Source: Anaeroplasma bactoclasticum (GTDB lineage: Bacteria; Bacillota_I; Bacilli_A; Acholeplasmatales; Anaeroplasmataceae). Taken from it: DNA of 64,000 nucleotides. Location of the stretch: the NCBI RefSeq assembly GCF_003550015.1, contig NZ_QXEV01000002.1, positions 124,001 to 188,000 of the forward strand, written 5' to 3'. The notes beneath the pieces are model-generated. The model worked only from the letters and a program-made list of their open reading frames with translations. It was not told the origin of the DNA and did no database searches. Both the position numbers and the translations under genes were made by a program. Positions 52,376 through 61,346 of this stretch are shown here, one piece after another; the first letter of the stretch is position 1, and each line of letters begins with the position of its first letter.

Positions 52376-53227
52376 ATGAATTATAAGATTAATGATGATT
52401 TGAAACTTGTTCGAGAAATGATTAATATGTCTCAAGAAGAAATGGCAAATAATATAGGGGTTCAAAAAAGAACTATTATAAGAATAGAGCGTGGAGAAAA
52501 CTATCCTTCAGAAGACACTTTAGAAAAGTTTTATAATTTTACTTATAAAAAAGGAATAAAACTGAATAGTATAAAAGAAATGTTCTACAAAGAAGAAAAC
52601 CCTAGTTTTAAGATTATATTTCATGGAGCTAGAAATACAATAGAAGGAAATATTTCTCCTTTTTATGGTAGAGAAAACAATGATTTTGGGAAGGGCTTTT
52701 ATTGCGGTGAAACAAGCGAACAGGCATCATCTTTTATTTCAAGATTTCCTAATTCATCTATTTATATGATTAAATTTAATGGTACAGGTTTAAAAAAAGT
52801 TGATTTTGATGTTAATCAAGAATGGATGCTAGCTATTGCCTATTATCGCGGTACTCTTAATGAATATGAAAATCATCCAATTATAAAAAAAATAGTTGAT
52901 AAAGTTAAAAATGCCGATTACATCTATGCTCCAATAGCTGATAATAGAATGTATCGTATAATTGAGCAATTTATTGATGGATATATTACCGATGAGCAAT
53001 GTAAGCATTGTTTGGCTGCTACAAATCTTGGTAAACAGTTTGTTTTTTTAACCGAGAAGGCAACTTCCAATCTAGAAATAATTGAAAGATGCTATCTTTC
53101 TGCATCTGAAAGGGACTATTATCACCAAATAAAACAAGCTGATATTAACGATTCTGATAATAAAGTAAAATTATCAATGATTAAATATAAAAATCAAGGA
53201 AAATATATTGAGGAGATACTAGGATGA
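52376..53227 (+). CDS. HTH-XRE protein fused to a DUF3990-type (ADP-ribosyltransferase-like) domain
   Basis: This 283-residue protein has an N-terminal XRE helix-turn-helix (about 8-62: VREMINMSQEEMANNIGVQKRTIIRIERGENYPSE). From about 75 a DUF3990-like domain follows: FKIIFHGARNTIEG with a conserved His, NDFGKGFYCGETSEQASSF with the family Phe-Gly-x-Gly-Phe-Tyr pattern and IEQFIDGYITDEQC. DUF3990 is related to PARP-type ADP-ribosyltransferases and is found in toxin-antitoxin-like pairs. The fused HTH would make it its own repressor through the twin operators upstream. ATGA overlap with the next gene. Confidence 0.75.
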   Translation: MNYKINDDLKLVREMINMSQEEMANNIGVQKRTIIRIERGENYPSEDTLEKFYNFTYKKGIKLNSIKEMFYKEENPSFKIIFHGARNTIEGNISPFYGRENNDFGKGFYCGETSEQASSFISRFPNSSIYMIKFNGTGLKKVDFDVNQEWMLAIAYYRGTLNEYENHPIIKKIVDKVKNADYIYAPIADNRMYRIIEQFIDGYITDEQCKHCLAATNLGKQFVFLTEKATSNLEIIERCYLSASERDYYHQIKQADINDSDNKVKLSMIKYKNQGKYIEEILG

Positions 53228-54267
53228 AAACTATAGATAAAGAAGGAAAAAGGCTATGTGATATTCAAGCGGATTTATTTGAAAAATCCGTTTCTGTTTT
53301 AGATATGAGTTCTGAGGTTTTCGTTCGAAGATTCATGAACTCAAAAATCGCTATTGAATTGGATAACAAAGCTTTTTTAGATGACAGCAAGACAATTAAT
53401 AATATTTTTGAAGAATTAGACTTGCAATATGGTAAGACTACATATGGTTCTTTAAAGTATAATAAGGATATAATGTATTGGGTTGGTTATTTGTATAGAT
53501 ACTTTTGTTATACATATAATTTATCTTCAAAACAGGCGTATAAATATTTGCCTTTAAAATATGTTGCTTCTACATTTATTTCATATCATTCCCTAGATGT
53601 TTCACAAGCTATTGAAAGATTGCTTGAAGCTAGAAATATTTCTTATAAAGAAGAAGACATTTTAAGAAAAGGTGTGGATATTCTTAGAGTAATAAGAAAT
53701 GTTGAAGATCCTTATGTGAAATTCCCTGTTTTAGGAAATGAAAGATTCTTGCTAAGAAAAGTTGAAGATAGTGATGTGAAAGATTTATTGAATGTTTATT
53801 CTGATAAAAAGGCGGTTAAATATTTCAATAGTGATAATTGTAATGGTGATGATTTCCATTACACAACAATTAAACGCATGAAAGAAGCTATAAGATTTTG
53901 GAATTATTCATATGAAAATGGTTTTTTTGTAAGATGGGCGATAGTTGATAAAGCAAATGGGATTGTTGTCGGTACTCTAGAGCAATTTCATCGAGATTCC
54001 AATGATTACTTTAATAATTGTTCTTTATTAAGGCTTGATTTAAAAAGTGAATACGAAAAGAAAAATATCATTATTAATATTTTAAAATTAGTTATTCCAT
54101 CCTCTTTTAATTTGTTTAATTGCGAGAGGATTATAACAAAATCTTTTGATGATGATGTTGAAAGAGAAAATGCTCTTTATGAATTAGGCTTTAAGAATCC
54201 AAATAAACATCTTATAGGTCATAATGGAGAAAGTTATTATAATTACTACGAGTTATTTAAAAAATAA
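53224..54267 (+). CDS. Partner protein with N-terminal antitoxin-like region and C-terminal GNAT acetyltransferase
   Basis: This 347-residue protein is cotranslated with the HTH-ART gene (4-base overlap). Residues about 75-155 (MYWVGYLYRYFCYTYNLSSKQAYKYLP...FISYHSLDVSQAIERL) resemble the small partners usually encoded beside DUF3990 proteins (DUF3791-like). The C-terminal half (about 175-347: GNERFLLRKVEDSDVKDLLNVYSD, FVRWAIVDKANGIVVGTLEQF, ENALYELGFKN) is a GNAT acetyltransferase of the ribosomal-protein-alanine type. The fusion could neutralise the partner and also acetylate a target. Domain naming is by eye. Confidence 0.65.
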   Translation: MKTIDKEGKRLCDIQADLFEKSVSVLDMSSEVFVRRFMNSKIAIELDNKAFLDDSKTINNIFEELDLQYGKTTYGSLKYNKDIMYWVGYLYRYFCYTYNLSSKQAYKYLPLKYVASTFISYHSLDVSQAIERLLEARNISYKEEDILRKGVDILRVIRNVEDPYVKFPVLGNERFLLRKVEDSDVKDLLNVYSDKKAVKYFNSDNCNGDDFHYTTIKRMKEAIRFWNYSYENGFFVRWAIVDKANGIVVGTLEQFHRDSNDYFNNCSLLRLDLKSEYEKKNIIINILKLVIPSSFNLFNCERIITKSFDDDVERENALYELGFKNPNKHLIGHNGESYYNYYELFKK

Positions 54268-55197: not shown

Positions 55198-58100
55198 ATG
55201 ACTAGAAAAGAACTGGAAGACCGCTTAGCTGCGGTAACCAACCAGCTGTTAGATTTAGGTAAGAGAAACAGACTACTAAATTATACAGATAAGGGTTTGA
55301 AAACACTGGCAATTTTAAATAAGAATGTAGAAGAAGTATTCCGTGGTGTAAAGCAGTATAGGGATTATACGTTCTTCCCAACAGATGAGAAGCTTTTAGA
55401 GGTTTCTAATAATCCAGAGCAGGAATTATTAAAGCCTGGTATGGATTTATTAAATCTTGAGGATGATATTGTTTATGAATCTGTAAGAAAGCTTCAGGAG
55501 AATAAGGATGAGCTTATTTGTTATAAGCAGCAGCATGGCCTTTTAAAAGCTTTAAAGGCTTTAAAAAAGGAATTTACATTCTCTATTGTTGAAAAGGGTA
55601 TGAACTCCTTATATTTATCTGTATGCTTCTTACATTATAAGGAAGAGGATATAGAGTATAAGGCTCCTCTTTTATTAATTCCAGTAGAAATTAATAATGA
55701 TTCTGGCGCTTTTATTATTCGTCAGTACGAGGATGAAATTATTTTAAATCCAACCCTAAGATATTATTTTACATCCGTTTTTAATACGGACTTAATTCCA
55801 TATAATAATGAAGCCTTAAGTACATATTTAGAGAAGGCTAGAGCAGCCTTACCTGAAGGAGTAATACTAGAAGAGGGTCTATCCTTAGGTATTTATTCCT
55901 TCTATAAGATGAATATGTATAATGACTTAATTTATAATCGTGATTTCGTTTTGGAAAATTCCAATATTCGTGCACTACTTGGTGAAGAGCATGGTTCATG
56001 GGATGCAAACTTCAATGAACCATTATACCCAGTAGTTAACTGTGACTCCTCACAGTTAAAAGCAATCCAATATGCAGCCAACGGTAAATCCTTCTGTTTA
56101 CAAGGACCTCCGGGGTCTGGTAAGAGCCAAACCATTACGAATATGATTTCCTCTATGCTTGGTGTTGGAAAGAAGATATTATTCGTATCGGAAAAGATCG
56201 CAGCATTAAATGTCGTATATGAAAACCTAAGAAGAGTAAGATTATCAGAATTCGCTTTAGAGCTTCATTCGAATAAAGCAAATAAAAAGGAATTCATTGA
56301 AAATATGTACCGTACGGCTACTCTTCCAAGATATGATATTGAGCTTAAAACAAGATTTTTAGGTACAAAATATGAATATTTTAGAAATAACTTACATAAT
56401 TATGAGAGCTACTTACATGAAATAATTCCTTCTTTAGGTGTTTCTTTATTTGATTTATATTCTATATATCTAGATACTAAGAGTGAACCAGTGCCATATG
56501 AATTAAAATTCATGGATACATTTAATTTAATGGATATGGATAGAATCTCTAAAACTTTAAGAGATTATGCTGGATATTCTAAAATTATTGGATTTAGTGA
56601 TTATAGAGAATCTCCATTATATGGCTTAAATCAAATCTCTGAAGAATATATTAAATCAGGCTTAAGAGCTGATATTGAAGCTTCCTTAGATTTATTAAAG
56701 AAAATCGAAGGAGTGCGTAAGGAATTACATGCGATAGGGCTTGATGCATCGAATATCATCGATGCGATGAAGTCTTTAGAGGTTGCAGATAAGATTGTTC
56801 AGATTAAGCAATATAAGCCTATTTATATGTTTAAAAAGAATCGTTTATTAATCAATGATATGATTAAGAAATACTTATCTTATTCTAAAGAGATTAAAAC
56901 CGATATTTTAAATGTTTATAAAGAAGAGGTGTTAACCCTAGATTTAGCTAAGATTCGTCAGGATTATGCAAGAATGATGAAGGAAACTAAGGGTATCTTT
57001 AAATCTCAAACAAAGGAATTTAAGGAACTAGATTCTAAGGTACAATCCTATAGAGTTGCTAAAGCCAAGCCTGAGGTTGTAGTAGAGGAATTAAATGACT
57101 TAGCTAAGCTTAAGGCTTATAAGGCTCAAGCCGATAATGCAGCTATAAGCATTAATAAGGCTTTAGGTAGTGATGCAATTACTAATTTAAGACAAATATT
57201 ATTAGATATTAAGGTTGTTGATCAATTACCAGATATGTCTATATCTACTCAAGCATTTAATAATTTAAAGGCTGCTTGGGAGAATTGTGATTTATACTTT
57301 TCTGAACAACAAGCAGAATATAAGAATTTATTGAATTTATCTCGTATATTTAAGATTAAGCAATTTAATATTACAAGCTGTACAATTAAAGAGGCTTATG
57401 ATAGAGTAGCTGAGGTAAATCAAGAAAGAAATCATATTTCTAATTATAGAAGAACTCTAGAGATTATTGATGAGCTTAAGGAAAAGAATGCAGAAGAATT
57501 CTTATATTATTATCTAGATAATAATTATAATCTAGATGAAATCTCTCAAAGATTTAAAAAGACTTTCTTAAAGAATAAGATTGATGCAGTTCACCATAGT
57601 GGTGATTTCTTACAGAACTTTGAAGCAGAAAGTGTTGATGAAATCATTGAAGGCTTCCGTGATTTAGATGAAAAGACATTAACAATTAATAGAGATATCA
57701 TTATTGCGAAAAACAGCCAAAAGCGCCAAAATGGTATGGCTGTTGAAGGATCTATGTTTAAGCTACTTGAGCGTGAGCATGAAAAGAAGACAAGACAAAA
57801 GCCAATAAGACAGCTACTTGAACAAATCTTTGAGCTTGCCTTAGAAATTAAGCCAGTATTCTTAATGTCTCCTTTATCTGTTTCTACATATTTAGCCAAT
57901 AAGCCAAATATGTTTGACTGTGTCATCTTTGATGAGGCAAGTCAAATATTTGCCTGTGATGCCTTAGGCTCTATTTATAGAGGTAAGCAGTGTATCATCA
58001 TTGGTGATGATAAGCAAATGCCACCATCGAATTTCTTCATGGCTCAGTTAGATGATAATTCTGGTACAGATGAGGAATTAGAATATGATATGGAATCTAT

Positions 58101-59691
58101 TTTGGATAAGGCCATGGCAACATTTGAAACAATTGCGTTAAAGTGGCATTATAGAAGTAGAAGCGAAGAATTAATTACCTTCTCCAATAATGCATTCTAT
58201 GCCGATAAGCTTATTACTGTACCTACTCCAAGAATTCATGAGGCAGGCTTTGGTGTTGACTTCTATTATGATCCTGAGGGTAGATATAATACAGTAACTA
58301 GAACGAATGTATTTGAGGCTGCCAAGGTTGCAAGAATGGTAATTGAGCATTATAAGAATTCGGATAAATCCTTAGGAGTTGTTGCCTTCTCTAGTAGCCA
58401 AGCTGATGAAATTCAGCGTGAGCTTGATAAGCTTATAAAGGATGATCCATCCTTAAAGAAATATTTCCAAGAGGATATTGATGAACCATTCTTTATTAAA
58501 AACCTTGAAACAGTTCAAGGCGATGAAAGAGATAGAATTATCTTCTCTATATGCTATGCATATAATGAGGATGGTAAATTCATGCAAAGATTCGGTCCTT
58601 TAAATGTTAAGGGTGGCGAAAGAAGATTAAATGTAGCTGTAACTAGAGCGAAGTATAATGTATCTATTGTATCCTCTATAAGATATACAGATATTAAAAC
58701 AAATACTTCATCTAAGGGTGCGTTATTATTAAGAGATTATTTGCAGTTTGCAGAAAACGTAGTTGCTGCAAAGAATTATACAGAAGAGTCTAATGGTATT
58801 ATTAGATCTGTACAGGAGTATTTAGAATCCCTAGGCTATACCGTATTACCACAGTATGGCTCATCCGCATTCAAGGTTGACCTTGCGGTAAAGAAGGATG
58901 AGGATTTCATAATGGCAATTATGATTGATGGTAAGAGTGAATACTCCGATAATGTAACAGATACCTATAGACTTGAAAAGCTACTTCTTGAGCGTCAGGG
59001 CTGGAAATATTTTAAGCTATTCGCTACAGCTTGGGTAAATAATCAGGAATCAGAAAAGCAAAGATTATTTGATGCCTTAACTCATGATGAGGATGAGGCA
59101 GTAGATGCAATCCAAATTAAAAAGCATGATTCTGATGAAGAAATTGATACATACCTACGTGAGGATAATACGGTAGATGTAGATGATTTCAACTTTGAAA
59201 GCTATAGAAGATTAGATTTATTCACCTCAAGGAAATCCTTACAAAAGGGAATTGGTACATTGGTTGAGGCATTAATTCAAGCAGAAGGACCAATTCATAG
59301 AGAATATCTATATAAGAGAGTTGCAAACATCATGGAGAAAGAAAAGCCTAATAAGGAAATTAAAACCGATGTTGATGATAATATTCCTGCAAAGGTTTTA
59401 CGTATGGGCGATTTCTTTATGAATTTTGATCAGATGAGTAAAATCAAATTAAGATTGAATTCCGATAGAGAAGCTACTCAAATATATGTAGATGAATATG
59501 TGGATGGTATTGTCGGTGTTGTTGCAAAGCAAAACGGTATTACTGTCCAAGGATGCTATAAAACATTAGTACAAATCTTAGGATTTGATAAGGTTGCAGC
59601 ATCCACAAGAAAGATACTAGATGAAGCCTTAGAGCATTTAATTCATAATAAGAGAATTGAAAGAAGAGGCGACAACCTATATCTATTGTAA
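55198..59691 (+). CDS. Giant DUF4011-type SF1 helicase with Vsr-like nuclease and DUF3320-like domains
   Basis: This 1497-residue protein has several domains. The N-terminus LLDLGKRNRLLNYTDKG (about 17-33) is the DUF4011 hallmark. The SF1 helicase core has Walker A GPPGSGKSQT near 303, Walker B VIFDEASQ near 910, GDDKQMPPS, and motifs ETVQGDERD and NVAVTRAK near 1145. A Vsr/MTES_1575-like nuclease domain (about 1200-1300) has YGSSAFKVDLAVKK and MIDGKSEYSD, but the usual acidic residue before DG appears as Met, so nuclease activity is doubtful. A DUF3320-like winged region follows (about 1390-1450). Such proteins are common in defence islands. It has its own promoter and terminator. Confidence 0.85.
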   Translation: MTRKELEDRLAAVTNQLLDLGKRNRLLNYTDKGLKTLAILNKNVEEVFRGVKQYRDYTFFPTDEKLLEVSNNPEQELLKPGMDLLNLEDDIVYESVRKLQENKDELICYKQQHGLLKALKALKKEFTFSIVEKGMNSLYLSVCFLHYKEEDIEYKAPLLLIPVEINNDSGAFIIRQYEDEIILNPTLRYYFTSVFNTDLIPYNNEALSTYLEKARAALPEGVILEEGLSLGIYSFYKMNMYNDLIYNRDFVLENSNIRALLGEEHGSWDANFNEPLYPVVNCDSSQLKAIQYAANGKSFCLQGPPGSGKSQTITNMISSMLGVGKKILFVSEKIAALNVVYENLRRVRLSEFALELHSNKANKKEFIENMYRTATLPRYDIELKTRFLGTKYEYFRNNLHNYESYLHEIIPSLGVSLFDLYSIYLDTKSEPVPYELKFMDTFNLMDMDRISKTLRDYAGYSKIIGFSDYRESPLYGLNQISEEYIKSGLRADIEASLDLLKKIEGVRKELHAIGLDASNIIDAMKSLEVADKIVQIKQYKPIYMFKKNRLLINDMIKKYLSYSKEIKTDILNVYKEEVLTLDLAKIRQDYARMMKETKGIFKSQTKEFKELDSKVQSYRVAKAKPEVVVEELNDLAKLKAYKAQADNAAISINKALGSDAITNLRQILLDIKVVDQLPDMSISTQAFNNLKAAWENCDLYFSEQQAEYKNLLNLSRIFKIKQFNITSCTIKEAYDRVAEVNQERNHISNYRRTLEIIDELKEKNAEEFLYYYLDNNYNLDEISQRFKKTFLKNKIDAVHHSGDFLQNFEAESVDEIIEGFRDLDEKTLTINRDIIIAKNSQKRQNGMAVEGSMFKLLEREHEKKTRQKPIRQLLEQIFELALEIKPVFLMSPLSVSTYLANKPNMFDCVIFDEASQIFACDALGSIYRGKQCIIIGDDKQMPPSNFFMAQLDDNSGTDEELEYDMESILDKAMATFETIALKWHYRSRSEELITFSNNAFYADKLITVPTPRIHEAGFGVDFYYDPEGRYNTVTRTNVFEAAKVARMVIEHYKNSDKSLGVVAFSSSQADEIQRELDKLIKDDPSLKKYFQEDIDEPFFIKNLETVQGDERDRIIFSICYAYNEDGKFMQRFGPLNVKGGERRLNVAVTRAKYNVSIVSSIRYTDIKTNTSSKGALLLRDYLQFAENVVAAKNYTEESNGIIRSVQEYLESLGYTVLPQYGSSAFKVDLAVKKDEDFIMAIMIDGKSEYSDNVTDTYRLEKLLLERQGWKYFKLFATAWVNNQESEKQRLFDALTHDEDEAVDAIQIKKHDSDEEIDTYLREDNTVDVDDFNFESYRRLDLFTSRKSLQKGIGTLVEALIQAEGPIHREYLYKRVANIMEKEKPNKEIKTDVDDNIPAKVLRMGDFFMNFDQMSKIKLRLNSDREATQIYVDEYVDGIVGVVAKQNGITVQGCYKTLVQILGFDKVAASTRKILDEALEHLIHNKRIERRGDNLYLL

Positions 59692-59697
59692 GGCTTA

Positions 59698-59730
59698 AGC
59701 ATCACGAACGGGTTCGTGGTGCTTTTTTTA
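59698..59730 (+). terminator. Terminator after the giant helicase
   Basis: AGCATCACGAAC and GTTCGTGGTGCT, with one G-T pair and a very short GG turn, then TTTTTT. Confidence 0.85.
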
Positions 59731-59821
59731 AAATTTTTAGTTTTCTTTTAATTTTTTTTATTTTTCTTCCTATTTATTTATATGGAGGATAGTTCAAATA
59801 AATATTTAGGAGGAAATTAAA

Positions 59822-60733
59822 ATGTGTAACAAATTACAATCTATTGGACTTACTGATTTTTACTTTAAGGAGCTGTGTCAAAGGAGGAAGGATTATTTAG
59901 TATTCATATTAAATGGTATTTGTAATCTAAATTTAAAGGAATCAGATATTGAGTTTTCTAATACGGAAGAAAGAGATATTTGTACTTTAAAAACCATTAA
60001 TTATGATATTAAGGTTATATCTAGTAATCTTAAAATTGATATTGAGGCTCAAATTAAACTTAATTCAAACGAAAAGAATGAAAATGGAGAATATGTTTAT
60101 GATGTATCTAGATCATTCTATTATTTAGCTGTATTACATTCTAGAGGATATGATTATAAGGAAAAGGGATATGAAAAAAGAAGATCTATAGTAGTATTTT
60201 TATATAAGTATGATATTGCAGGAGATGATTCTATACAAAAGATTGGAATGCATAATTATTCAACCAAAGTAGATTATGATGATATGTTAGTATATGCTGT
60301 ATCCCTTGAAAAAATACCTGAAAATAGTAAAATAGAACTGGATAGGGCATTAAAGCTTTTATCTTCACTAGATATGACACCATATCTAGATGATAATTCC
60401 AGTGTAATAAGGAGGGCTGCCGACATGTTATGTGATTATGATAAGAGCGAAAAAGCACAAATGGAAAGAGATGCAAGAAATAAACAAGAACTAGAGCAGT
60501 ATACTCTTTTAAATGCAGCTAAAAAAGAAGGCCATGAAGAAGGTAAGGCAGAAGGAATTGAAGAAGGCATCGAAAAAGGCATAGTAATTGGAGAAGAAAA
60601 AGGCATCGAAAAGGGAAAAAAGGAAAACCAATTAGAAACTATTAAAATTTTATTTGAAACTGGCTTATCAAAAGAAGATATTGCTAAGCACTTAAGGCTG
60701 GACTTAGAGTATGTAAAGGAAGTATTGAAGTAA
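59822..60733 (+). CDS. Rpn-family PD-(D/E)XK nuclease
   Basis: This 303-residue protein has the N-terminal nuclease of the Rpn/PDDEXK_2 family: LTDFYFKELCQRRKDYLVFILNGI, then YDIKVISSNLKIDIEAQIKL with the Asp-(x)n-Glu-x-Gln catalytic pattern (about 62-82), and FYYLAVLHSRGY. The C-terminus is a charged helix with Gly-Lys/Glu repeats (EGIEEGIEKG, GEEKGIEKGKKE), then a small helical end domain (LSKEDIAKHLRLDLEYVKEVLK). Rpn proteins promote recA-independent recombination and can act in phage defence and be toxic. GGAGG precedes the ATG. An internal start at 60425 could make the C-terminal domain alone. Confidence 0.85.
   Translation: MCNKLQSIGLTDFYFKELCQRRKDYLVFILNGICNLNLKESDIEFSNTEERDICTLKTINYDIKVISSNLKIDIEAQIKLNSNEKNENGEYVYDVSRSFYYLAVLHSRGYDYKEKGYEKRRSIVVFLYKYDIAGDDSIQKIGMHNYSTKVDYDDMLVYAVSLEKIPENSKIELDRALKLLSSLDMTPYLDDNSSVIRRAADMLCDYDKSEKAQMERDARNKQELEQYTLLNAAKKEGHEEGKAEGIEEGIEKGIVIGEEKGIEKGKKENQLETIKILFETGLSKEDIAKHLRLDLEYVKEVLK
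60409..60427 (+). promoter_or_regulatory. Internal Shine-Dalgarno and in-frame ATG within the Rpn gene
   Basis: AAGGAGGG (60409-60416) lies 8 bases before ATG (60425-60427), codon 202 of the Rpn frame. Initiation here would give a 102-residue product (MLCDYDKSEK...) containing only the repeat helix and end domain. This is as good a ribosome site as any true start in the window. It mirrors the intragenic small product known from E. coli Rpn genes. Confidence 0.7.
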
Positions 60734-61127
60734 GTATTAGAATTTCTAGTGATATAAGTAGCTATTGGAGGATTATATATAATGGTTCAATATACAGAAG
60801 AAGAAAGAAAAATGCTTGAAAGATACGAATTGGAAAGAGATGCTAAAAATAAACAAGAACTAGAGCAGTATACTCTTTTAAATGCAGCTAAAGCCGAAGG
60901 AAAAAAAGAAAACCAATTAGAAACTATTAAAACTATGTTTGAAAAGGGTGCATCTATAGAAAATATAGCATACCTCTTAGATCTTGATTTAGAGTATGTA
61001 AAAGAAGTATTGAAGTAAGTATTAGAATTTCTAGTGATATAAGTAGCTATTGGAGGATTACATATAATGGTTCAATATACAGAAGAAGAAAGAAAAATGC
61101 TTGAAAGATACGAATTGGAAAGAGATG
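60721..61127 (+). repeat. Tandem duplication, about 122-bp near-identical blocks 285 bp apart
   Basis: 60721-60842 and 61006-61127 differ at only one or two positions and cover the end of one frame, the spacer with its GGAGG site, and the first about 20 codons of the next. The period is 285 bp. The remaining half of each unit has diverged. Confidence 0.9.
60782..61018 (+). CDS. Stand-alone Rpn C-terminal domain, copy 1
   Basis: This 78-residue protein begins MVQYTEEERKMLERYELERD and then matches the C-terminal part of the preceding Rpn protein (NKQELEQYTLLNAA, KENQLETIK, LDLEYVKEVLK). The nuclease domain and the Gly-Lys repeats are absent. A GGAGG site precedes the ATG, so it is a real gene rather than a remnant. 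In Rpn systems the separate C-terminal domain can bind and inhibit the full-length nuclease, so an antitoxin-like role is likely (inference). Confidence 0.8.
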   Translation: MVQYTEEERKMLERYELERDAKNKQELEQYTLLNAAKAEGKKENQLETIKTMFEKGASIENIAYLLDLDLEYVKEVLK

Positions 61128-61303
61128 CCAGAAATAAGGCAGAATTAGAATACTATACTCTTTTAAATGCAGCCAAAAAGGAAGGCCATGAAGAAGGTAA
61201 GGCAGAGATTATTAAGTCTATGCATGACTTTGGAATGTCCATAGAGGAAATTGCAAAAGTATGTAAGTTAGATATAGATTATATAAAAGAAGTATTGAAA
61301 TAG
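61067..61303 (+). CDS. Stand-alone Rpn C-terminal domain, copy 2
   Basis: This 78-residue tandem copy of the previous gene shares the first 20 residues exactly (MVQYTEEERKMLERYELERD). It then diverges (ARNKAELEYYTLLNAAKKEGHEEGKAE) and ends CKLDIDYIKEVLK. The middle is closer to the full-length Rpn in keeping EGHEEGKAE. It has the same GGAGG ribosome site. Divergence of the specificity-like part while the head stays constant suggests selection for different partners, or simple decay of one copy. Confidence 0.8.
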   Translation: MVQYTEEERKMLERYELERDARNKAELEYYTLLNAAKKEGHEEGKAEIIKSMHDFGMSIEEIAKVCKLDIDYIKEVLK

Positions 61304-61315
61304 TTATTATAGAAT

Positions 61316-61346
61316 TGGTATGATGATGAGTCATACCATTTTTTAT
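61316..61346 (+). terminator. Terminator after the Rpn cluster
   Basis: TGGTATGA (61316-61323) and TCATACCA (61331-61338) with loop TGATGAG, then TTTTTTAT. Confidence 0.85.

Follow-up and report, generated by a model that had tools for sequence, protein, structure and literature searches.

Why is an rpn gene that appears to encode its own antidote followed by two free-standing versions of the same antidote-like domain? The genes in question lie on the forward strand of the 64,000 nt stretch of DNA analyzed here (the window), which belongs to a 2.2-Mb draft assembly of 58 contigs. Gene rpnL (59822–60733), preceded by a Shine-Dalgarno sequence AGGAGG (59808–59813), is predicted to encode a 303-aa nuclease of the Rpn family, of the PD-(D/E)XK type. 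It is followed by a 48-nt intergenic leader (60734–60781, with GGAGG at 60767–60771) and ORF S1 (60782–61018), and then by a second 48-nt leader (61019–61066, with GGAGG at 61052–61056) and ORF S2 (61067–61303), with S1 and S2 each specifying a free-standing RpnS-like protein of 78 aa. This arrangement, an Rpn gene with an internal start and two small downstream genes with GGAGG sites, was described in the initial annotation and is borne out by the sequence and its ORFs. Only two terminator-like hairpins were predicted in the region, at 59697–59724, for the preceding DUF4011-helicase gene, and at 61316–61338; they flank rpnL, S1 and S2, which are thus predicted to be a single transcription unit bounded by terminators.

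The gene directly upstream of this unit (55198–59691) encodes a 1497-aa protein with DUF4011, helicase and MTES_1575 REase domains that is assigned to PDC-S37, a candidate defence family of PADLOC (E = 5e-304), an observation from this single locus. Further upstream, next to a gene with a GNAT domain (53224–54267), there is a gene (52376–53227) for a protein with HTH_3 and DUF3990 domains that may belong to a toxin-antitoxin module. A T-rich leader is found in common upstream of rpnL in three loci of this genome, designated A (window, 59730–59821), B (L021) and C (L023), and includes just 5′ of the rpnL start a stretch resembling CTTCCTATTTATTTA, likely a common promoter or operator. Locus C (G000:C2:28500–31500, approximately 740–1465 within it) is a decayed rpn paralogue with an N-terminal domain close to that of the window gene; it is without the catalytic EAQ stretch and a stop severs its tail.

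Several comparisons support the assignment of RpnL to the Rpn nucleases, as first proposed from the sequence. The whole of RpnL aligned with TIGR01784, though with a score below the curated cut-off (E = 9.9e-7), and it is 54% identical to the product of another rpn gene of this genome, locus B on contig C13, which in a profile search scored above the PF12784 cut-off. Likewise, hhalign aligned RpnL with RpnA, RpnC and Rpn proteins from Bacillota (Prob 97, E = 9e-11, 15% identity). The active-site residues of RpnA are D11, D63, E82, Q84 and R94 (PMC5350276); residues D12, E75, Q77 and R97 of RpnL correspond to D11, E82, Q84 and R94 and are invariant in the alignment, and D62 corresponds to D63 by a by-eye placement beside an alignment gap. 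As read from this alignment, RpnL carries every known active-site residue of Rpn nucleases. The AlphaFold model of RpnL is uncertain (pLDDT 53) and a fold search with it returned nothing usable. Relatives retrieved by a scan of genome contigs were from the genus only, with Acholeplasmatales and Anaeroplasma MAGs in public records.

Within rpnL, a Shine-Dalgarno sequence AAGGAGG (60409–60415) is followed, after 9 nt, by an in-frame ATG at 60425, which is codon 202. ORFs of 200 aa or longer in the window contain 400 internal in-frame ATGs, of which 4 are preceded by GGAGG at a distance of no more than 16 nt, and the chance of finding it before a single internal ATG in the window is therefore about 1%. 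The GGAGG is kept in eight related rpn genes of the genus, every one of which also has the ATG, although the codons that overlap it vary (AGG AGG, RR; AGG GAG, RE; AAG GAG, KE). In the window, AGG makes up 9% of Arg codons and GAG 26% of Glu codons. Since the GGAGG and ATG are maintained while the residues change, and are written with rare codons, their conservation bears the mark of selection for an internal start, in agreement with the intragenic antitoxin-like start initially proposed. The predicted product, RpnS, would span codons 202–303 (60425–60733; 102 aa), for which there is precedent in E. coli (PMC10327210). It is very likely, from the conservation of this signal, that rpnL encodes its own antidote from 60425 and, with a repeat number that is by construction in register with that of RpnL, the intragenic product is most likely the antitoxin of the local RpnL.

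In E. coli, internal starts yield an RpnS antitoxin that binds RpnL (Zhong et al. 2023, PMC10327210); an RpnS product was also seen from a C. difficile gene, and Rpn systems, some of which defend against phages, are known from 34 bacterial phyla (PMC10327210). Free second copies are also described there, namely ypaA downstream of rpnE, whose product YpaA is a second copy of RpnE-S made in E. coli, and, in certain strains, rpnC-S located 3′ of rpnC (PMC10327210). The window therefore resembles the systems described by Zhong et al. in the PD-(D/E)XK nuclease, the internal start before a C-terminal three-helix domain, the 4-aa repeats in the first helix and the separate small-gene copy downstream. 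It differs in having two free copies in tandem where those systems have one, in its AT-rich, Acholeplasmatales-type host, in its distant sequence and in a difference of seven repeats. The co-occurrence of both forms, an internal start and free copies, which the initial annotation singled out, is indeed seen here but is not new: it is the architecture published for rpnE/ypaA and rpnC/rpnC-S (PMC10327210), here with two tandem copies. What the window adds is a register mismatch between the free copies and the adjacent RpnL, together with an exchange of tails between loci.

The C-terminal part of the RpnL locus specifies a helical domain with variable 4-aa repeats. In RpnL, a block of 28 residues (about 7 × 4; 60533–60616, with approximate borders, from comparison with S1 and S2) precedes a tail (60623–60730) that is HTH-like in similarity searches, and a sequence search of the PDB with the RpnL profile gave only weak matches to helical or resolvase HTH chains. 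The predicted structure of S1 consists of one long and two short helices (pLDDT 74). The two free copies have the constant head and diverging tail noted at the outset: their leaders are identical in 47/48 nt and the first 30-nt windows of the genes in 30/30, decreasing to 16–18/30 in the tail windows, and their tails are approximately 55% identical.

From a shared AAK to a shared IK there are 44 residues in RpnL vs 16 in both S1 and S2, a difference of 28 residues, or 7 × 4. Locus B shows the reverse situation, with a free copy upstream of its rpnL that is 28 aa longer than its own RpnL, the two tails being otherwise nearly identical, including the downstream sequence. A cross-locus pairing of loci A and B, suggested by the reciprocal repeat differences (+7/0 and 0/+7), was discarded and the pattern given no weight because the tails are only about 40% identical. 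No RpnL in this genome was found to combine the repeat number and the tail of either S1 or S2; the copy resembling S1 on contig C5 ends at the contig border just before the repeats.

This difference is relevant because the addition of one repeat to either RpnC-S or RpnC-L abolished inhibition, which was restored when the repeat was added to both (PMC10327210, Fig. 4D). A free copy acting as cognate antitoxin would have the repeat number of its toxin, and in the window the two differ by 28 aa. Being seven tetrads shorter than RpnL, when a single tetrad was enough to abolish inhibition in RpnC, S1 and S2 probably do not serve the local RpnL as antitoxins. As a counterpoint, this repeat-number rule was established with a single E. 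coli pair, RpnC, by means of one added repeat and an SOS reporter; this is the only published test known to us, and the rule may not hold in the group studied here.

The mismatch extends to other loci. A survey of rpn loci in the phylum and class gave 29 alignable pairs of a free copy and RpnL from 24 loci, a tally that excludes pairs with no alignable repeat blocks (L185, the second pair of L075 and the first of L104). Length was unequal in 25/29 pairs, and in 23 of these 25 the difference is a multiple of four (binomial P of approximately 2e-12 vs 1/4). The two others, L195 and L104b, have heptad-like repeats, and the four pairs of equal length (L063, L098, L147 and one of L149) have few or no 4-aa repeats. 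Loci L104 and L195 have Rpn tails with heptad-like instead of tetrad repeats, and their free copies differ from RpnL by 15 and by 35 or more residues. Two pairs are otherwise nearly identical, those of L188 (90/92 aa, apart from 8 missing aa) and L191 (70/71 aa, apart from 4 missing aa).

In E. coli, RpnL and the free copy had the same repeat number in 0/18 haplotypes (10 of rpnE and 8 distinct of rpnC, with L201 read by eye as having 6 tetrads), a mismatch on which the main text of PMC10327210 makes no remark. The repeat numbers of rpnE (RpnL, free copy) were (0,1), (1,4), (2,4), (5,0), (5,1), (5,2), (6,2), (6,4), (8,4) and (8,6), and showed no correlation (rho 0.08, first eight haplotypes). 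If a free copy were the cognate antitoxin, its repeat number would be expected to follow that of its toxin, and here the two do not covary. An active avoidance of matching was considered but is not claimed: shuffling predicts about 0.6–0.7 matches for rpnE, vs 0 observed, and 0 for rpnC, where the lengths of RpnL and of the free copy have no value in common. Independence fits these numbers as well as avoidance, and we therefore claim only a lack of tracking. Collapse of repeats during assembly was likewise dismissed as the cause of the mismatch, because complete E. coli genomes behave alike and the repeat units within the window RpnL are not identical to one another. Some E. coli free copies have the repeat block of an RpnL from other strains, such as KLEGLQEG, present in the free copies of L123 and L129 and in the RpnL of L124, or the absence of repeats, shared by the free copy of L127 and the RpnL of K-12. 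Such coincidences would be expected both if free copies were non-cognate antitoxins and if they were tail donors.

Comparison of the small copies with distant Rpn tails, as suggested in the initial annotation, identified the S1 tail at the end of contig C5 (L022), where it is identical in 109/111 nt and is closer to S1 than the tails of RpnL or S2 are. This locus, a further rpn or free copy, runs past the contig border. In the related genome G097 there are two classes of heads and several of tails, freely combined among RpnL and free-copy genes. For example, 84L and 81L have unrelated heads (56/114) and tails identical in 78/87 positions (90%), whereas 84L and 83L share the head (109/114) and not the tail (56/87). 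The junction between head and tail is the repeat block. Judging from these incongruences, HTH tails are swapped between loci and between genes for RpnL and for free copies.

Three explanations other than non-cognate immunity were considered. A first possibility, in which S1 and S2 supply additional antitoxin for the local RpnL and the gene dosage adds safety, would agree with the common operon, their own Shine-Dalgarno sites and the shared head and helical domain, as well as with the production of YpaA in E. coli (PMC10327210). This reading is nevertheless unlikely in view of the 28-aa register mismatch in the window, of the mismatches in 25/29 surveyed pairs and 18/18 E. coli haplotypes, and of the single repeat that suffices to abolish RpnC inhibition (PMC10327210). 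It appears equally improbable that the free copies are functionless leftovers, drifting after tandem duplication of rpn. Arrays of rpn do arise by tandem duplication (PMC10327210), there is a decayed rpn in the same genome (G000:C2:29237), the rpnE free copy is missing from many E. coli strains, and hypervariable repeats drift. However, the window and almost every locus read have intact ORFs with Shine-Dalgarno sites, the repeat changes preserve the frame, and the free rpnE tails show a pN/pS of 0.29 (few sites), all of which argues against pure debris.

Alternatively, the free copies could be a pool of cassettes from which a repeat block and tail are copied into rpnL; the antitoxin is the same DNA as the toxin tail, so that toxin specificity and matched antitoxin would switch in one step. 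The head/tail incongruence between loci and between RpnL and free-copy genes, the mosaic structure of S1 and S2, the presence of the S1 tail at another locus and the crossover at the repeat block are all as such a pool would predict. Conversely, the free copies keep Shine-Dalgarno sites and intact frames and, in rpnE, tails that look constrained, which suggests that their proteins probably matter, and the tails of RpnL and of free copies remain distinct in E. coli rpnE; on balance, we regard the pool as possible but rather doubtful.

We favour, with roughly even confidence, that the locus is a gene-within-gene toxin–antitoxin operon in which S1 and S2 would act as antitoxins against RpnL variants of other repeat length or tail. 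Full-length RpnL would be a DNA nuclease toxin, restrained by the RpnS started at 60425, whose long helix, of equal repeat length, would pair with that of RpnL. S1 and S2, intact and transcribed with rpnL but each translated on its own, would provide versions of the RpnS domain with seven fewer repeats and different HTH tails, and their targets may be RpnL variants encoded elsewhere in the genome or by relatives, or those of an earlier state of rpnL. The sequences show the anatomy, the conservation of the internal start, the register mismatch and the tail mosaics; we infer the toxicity of RpnL, its inhibition and the RpnL targets of the free copies. Recombination in the repeat block would swap tails between loci and between both types of genes, diversifying the set. 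Since RpnA-S and RpnB-S do not cross-inhibit (Zhong et al., PMC10327210), action across loci would need close tails. An equal mismatch could also arise by independent drift of a hypervariable repeat, with no role in non-self immunity. Still, inhibition of other Rpn proteins by the free copies appears to fit the data better than service to the local RpnL. The idea of an expanding antitoxin set is partly supported, with the copies probably aimed at targets other than the local RpnL.

The CDI and Rhs polymorphic toxin systems contain orphan toxin/immunity cassettes. The window recalls them in its shared head, exchangeable tails and spare modules unmatched to the main gene; unlike in those systems, the spare module here comprises no more than the antitoxin-like domain, and within the main gene this domain doubles as the C-terminus of the toxin. 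Similarly, in the type I restriction systems EcoR124I/II specificity depends on how many 4-aa repeats a helix contains (cited in PMC10327210), although there the repeat number sets the spacing of the DNA target and not the pairing of toxin and antitoxin.

More generally, and as a tentative proposal to which we lend somewhat less than even confidence, free RpnS proteins may as a class provide immunity against non-self Rpn nucleases or form an archive for tail switching, their genes being retained in operons whose RpnL they would be unable to inhibit. The repeat block would then act as a recognition ruler and also as a joint for recombination, through which toxin and antitoxin change at once. 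Should a register mismatch prove systematic among free RpnS proteins, the simple picture of a toxin plus a spare antitoxin would be wrong for such copies, and the cause of the fast variation of the antitoxin domain would become testable, including in E. coli.
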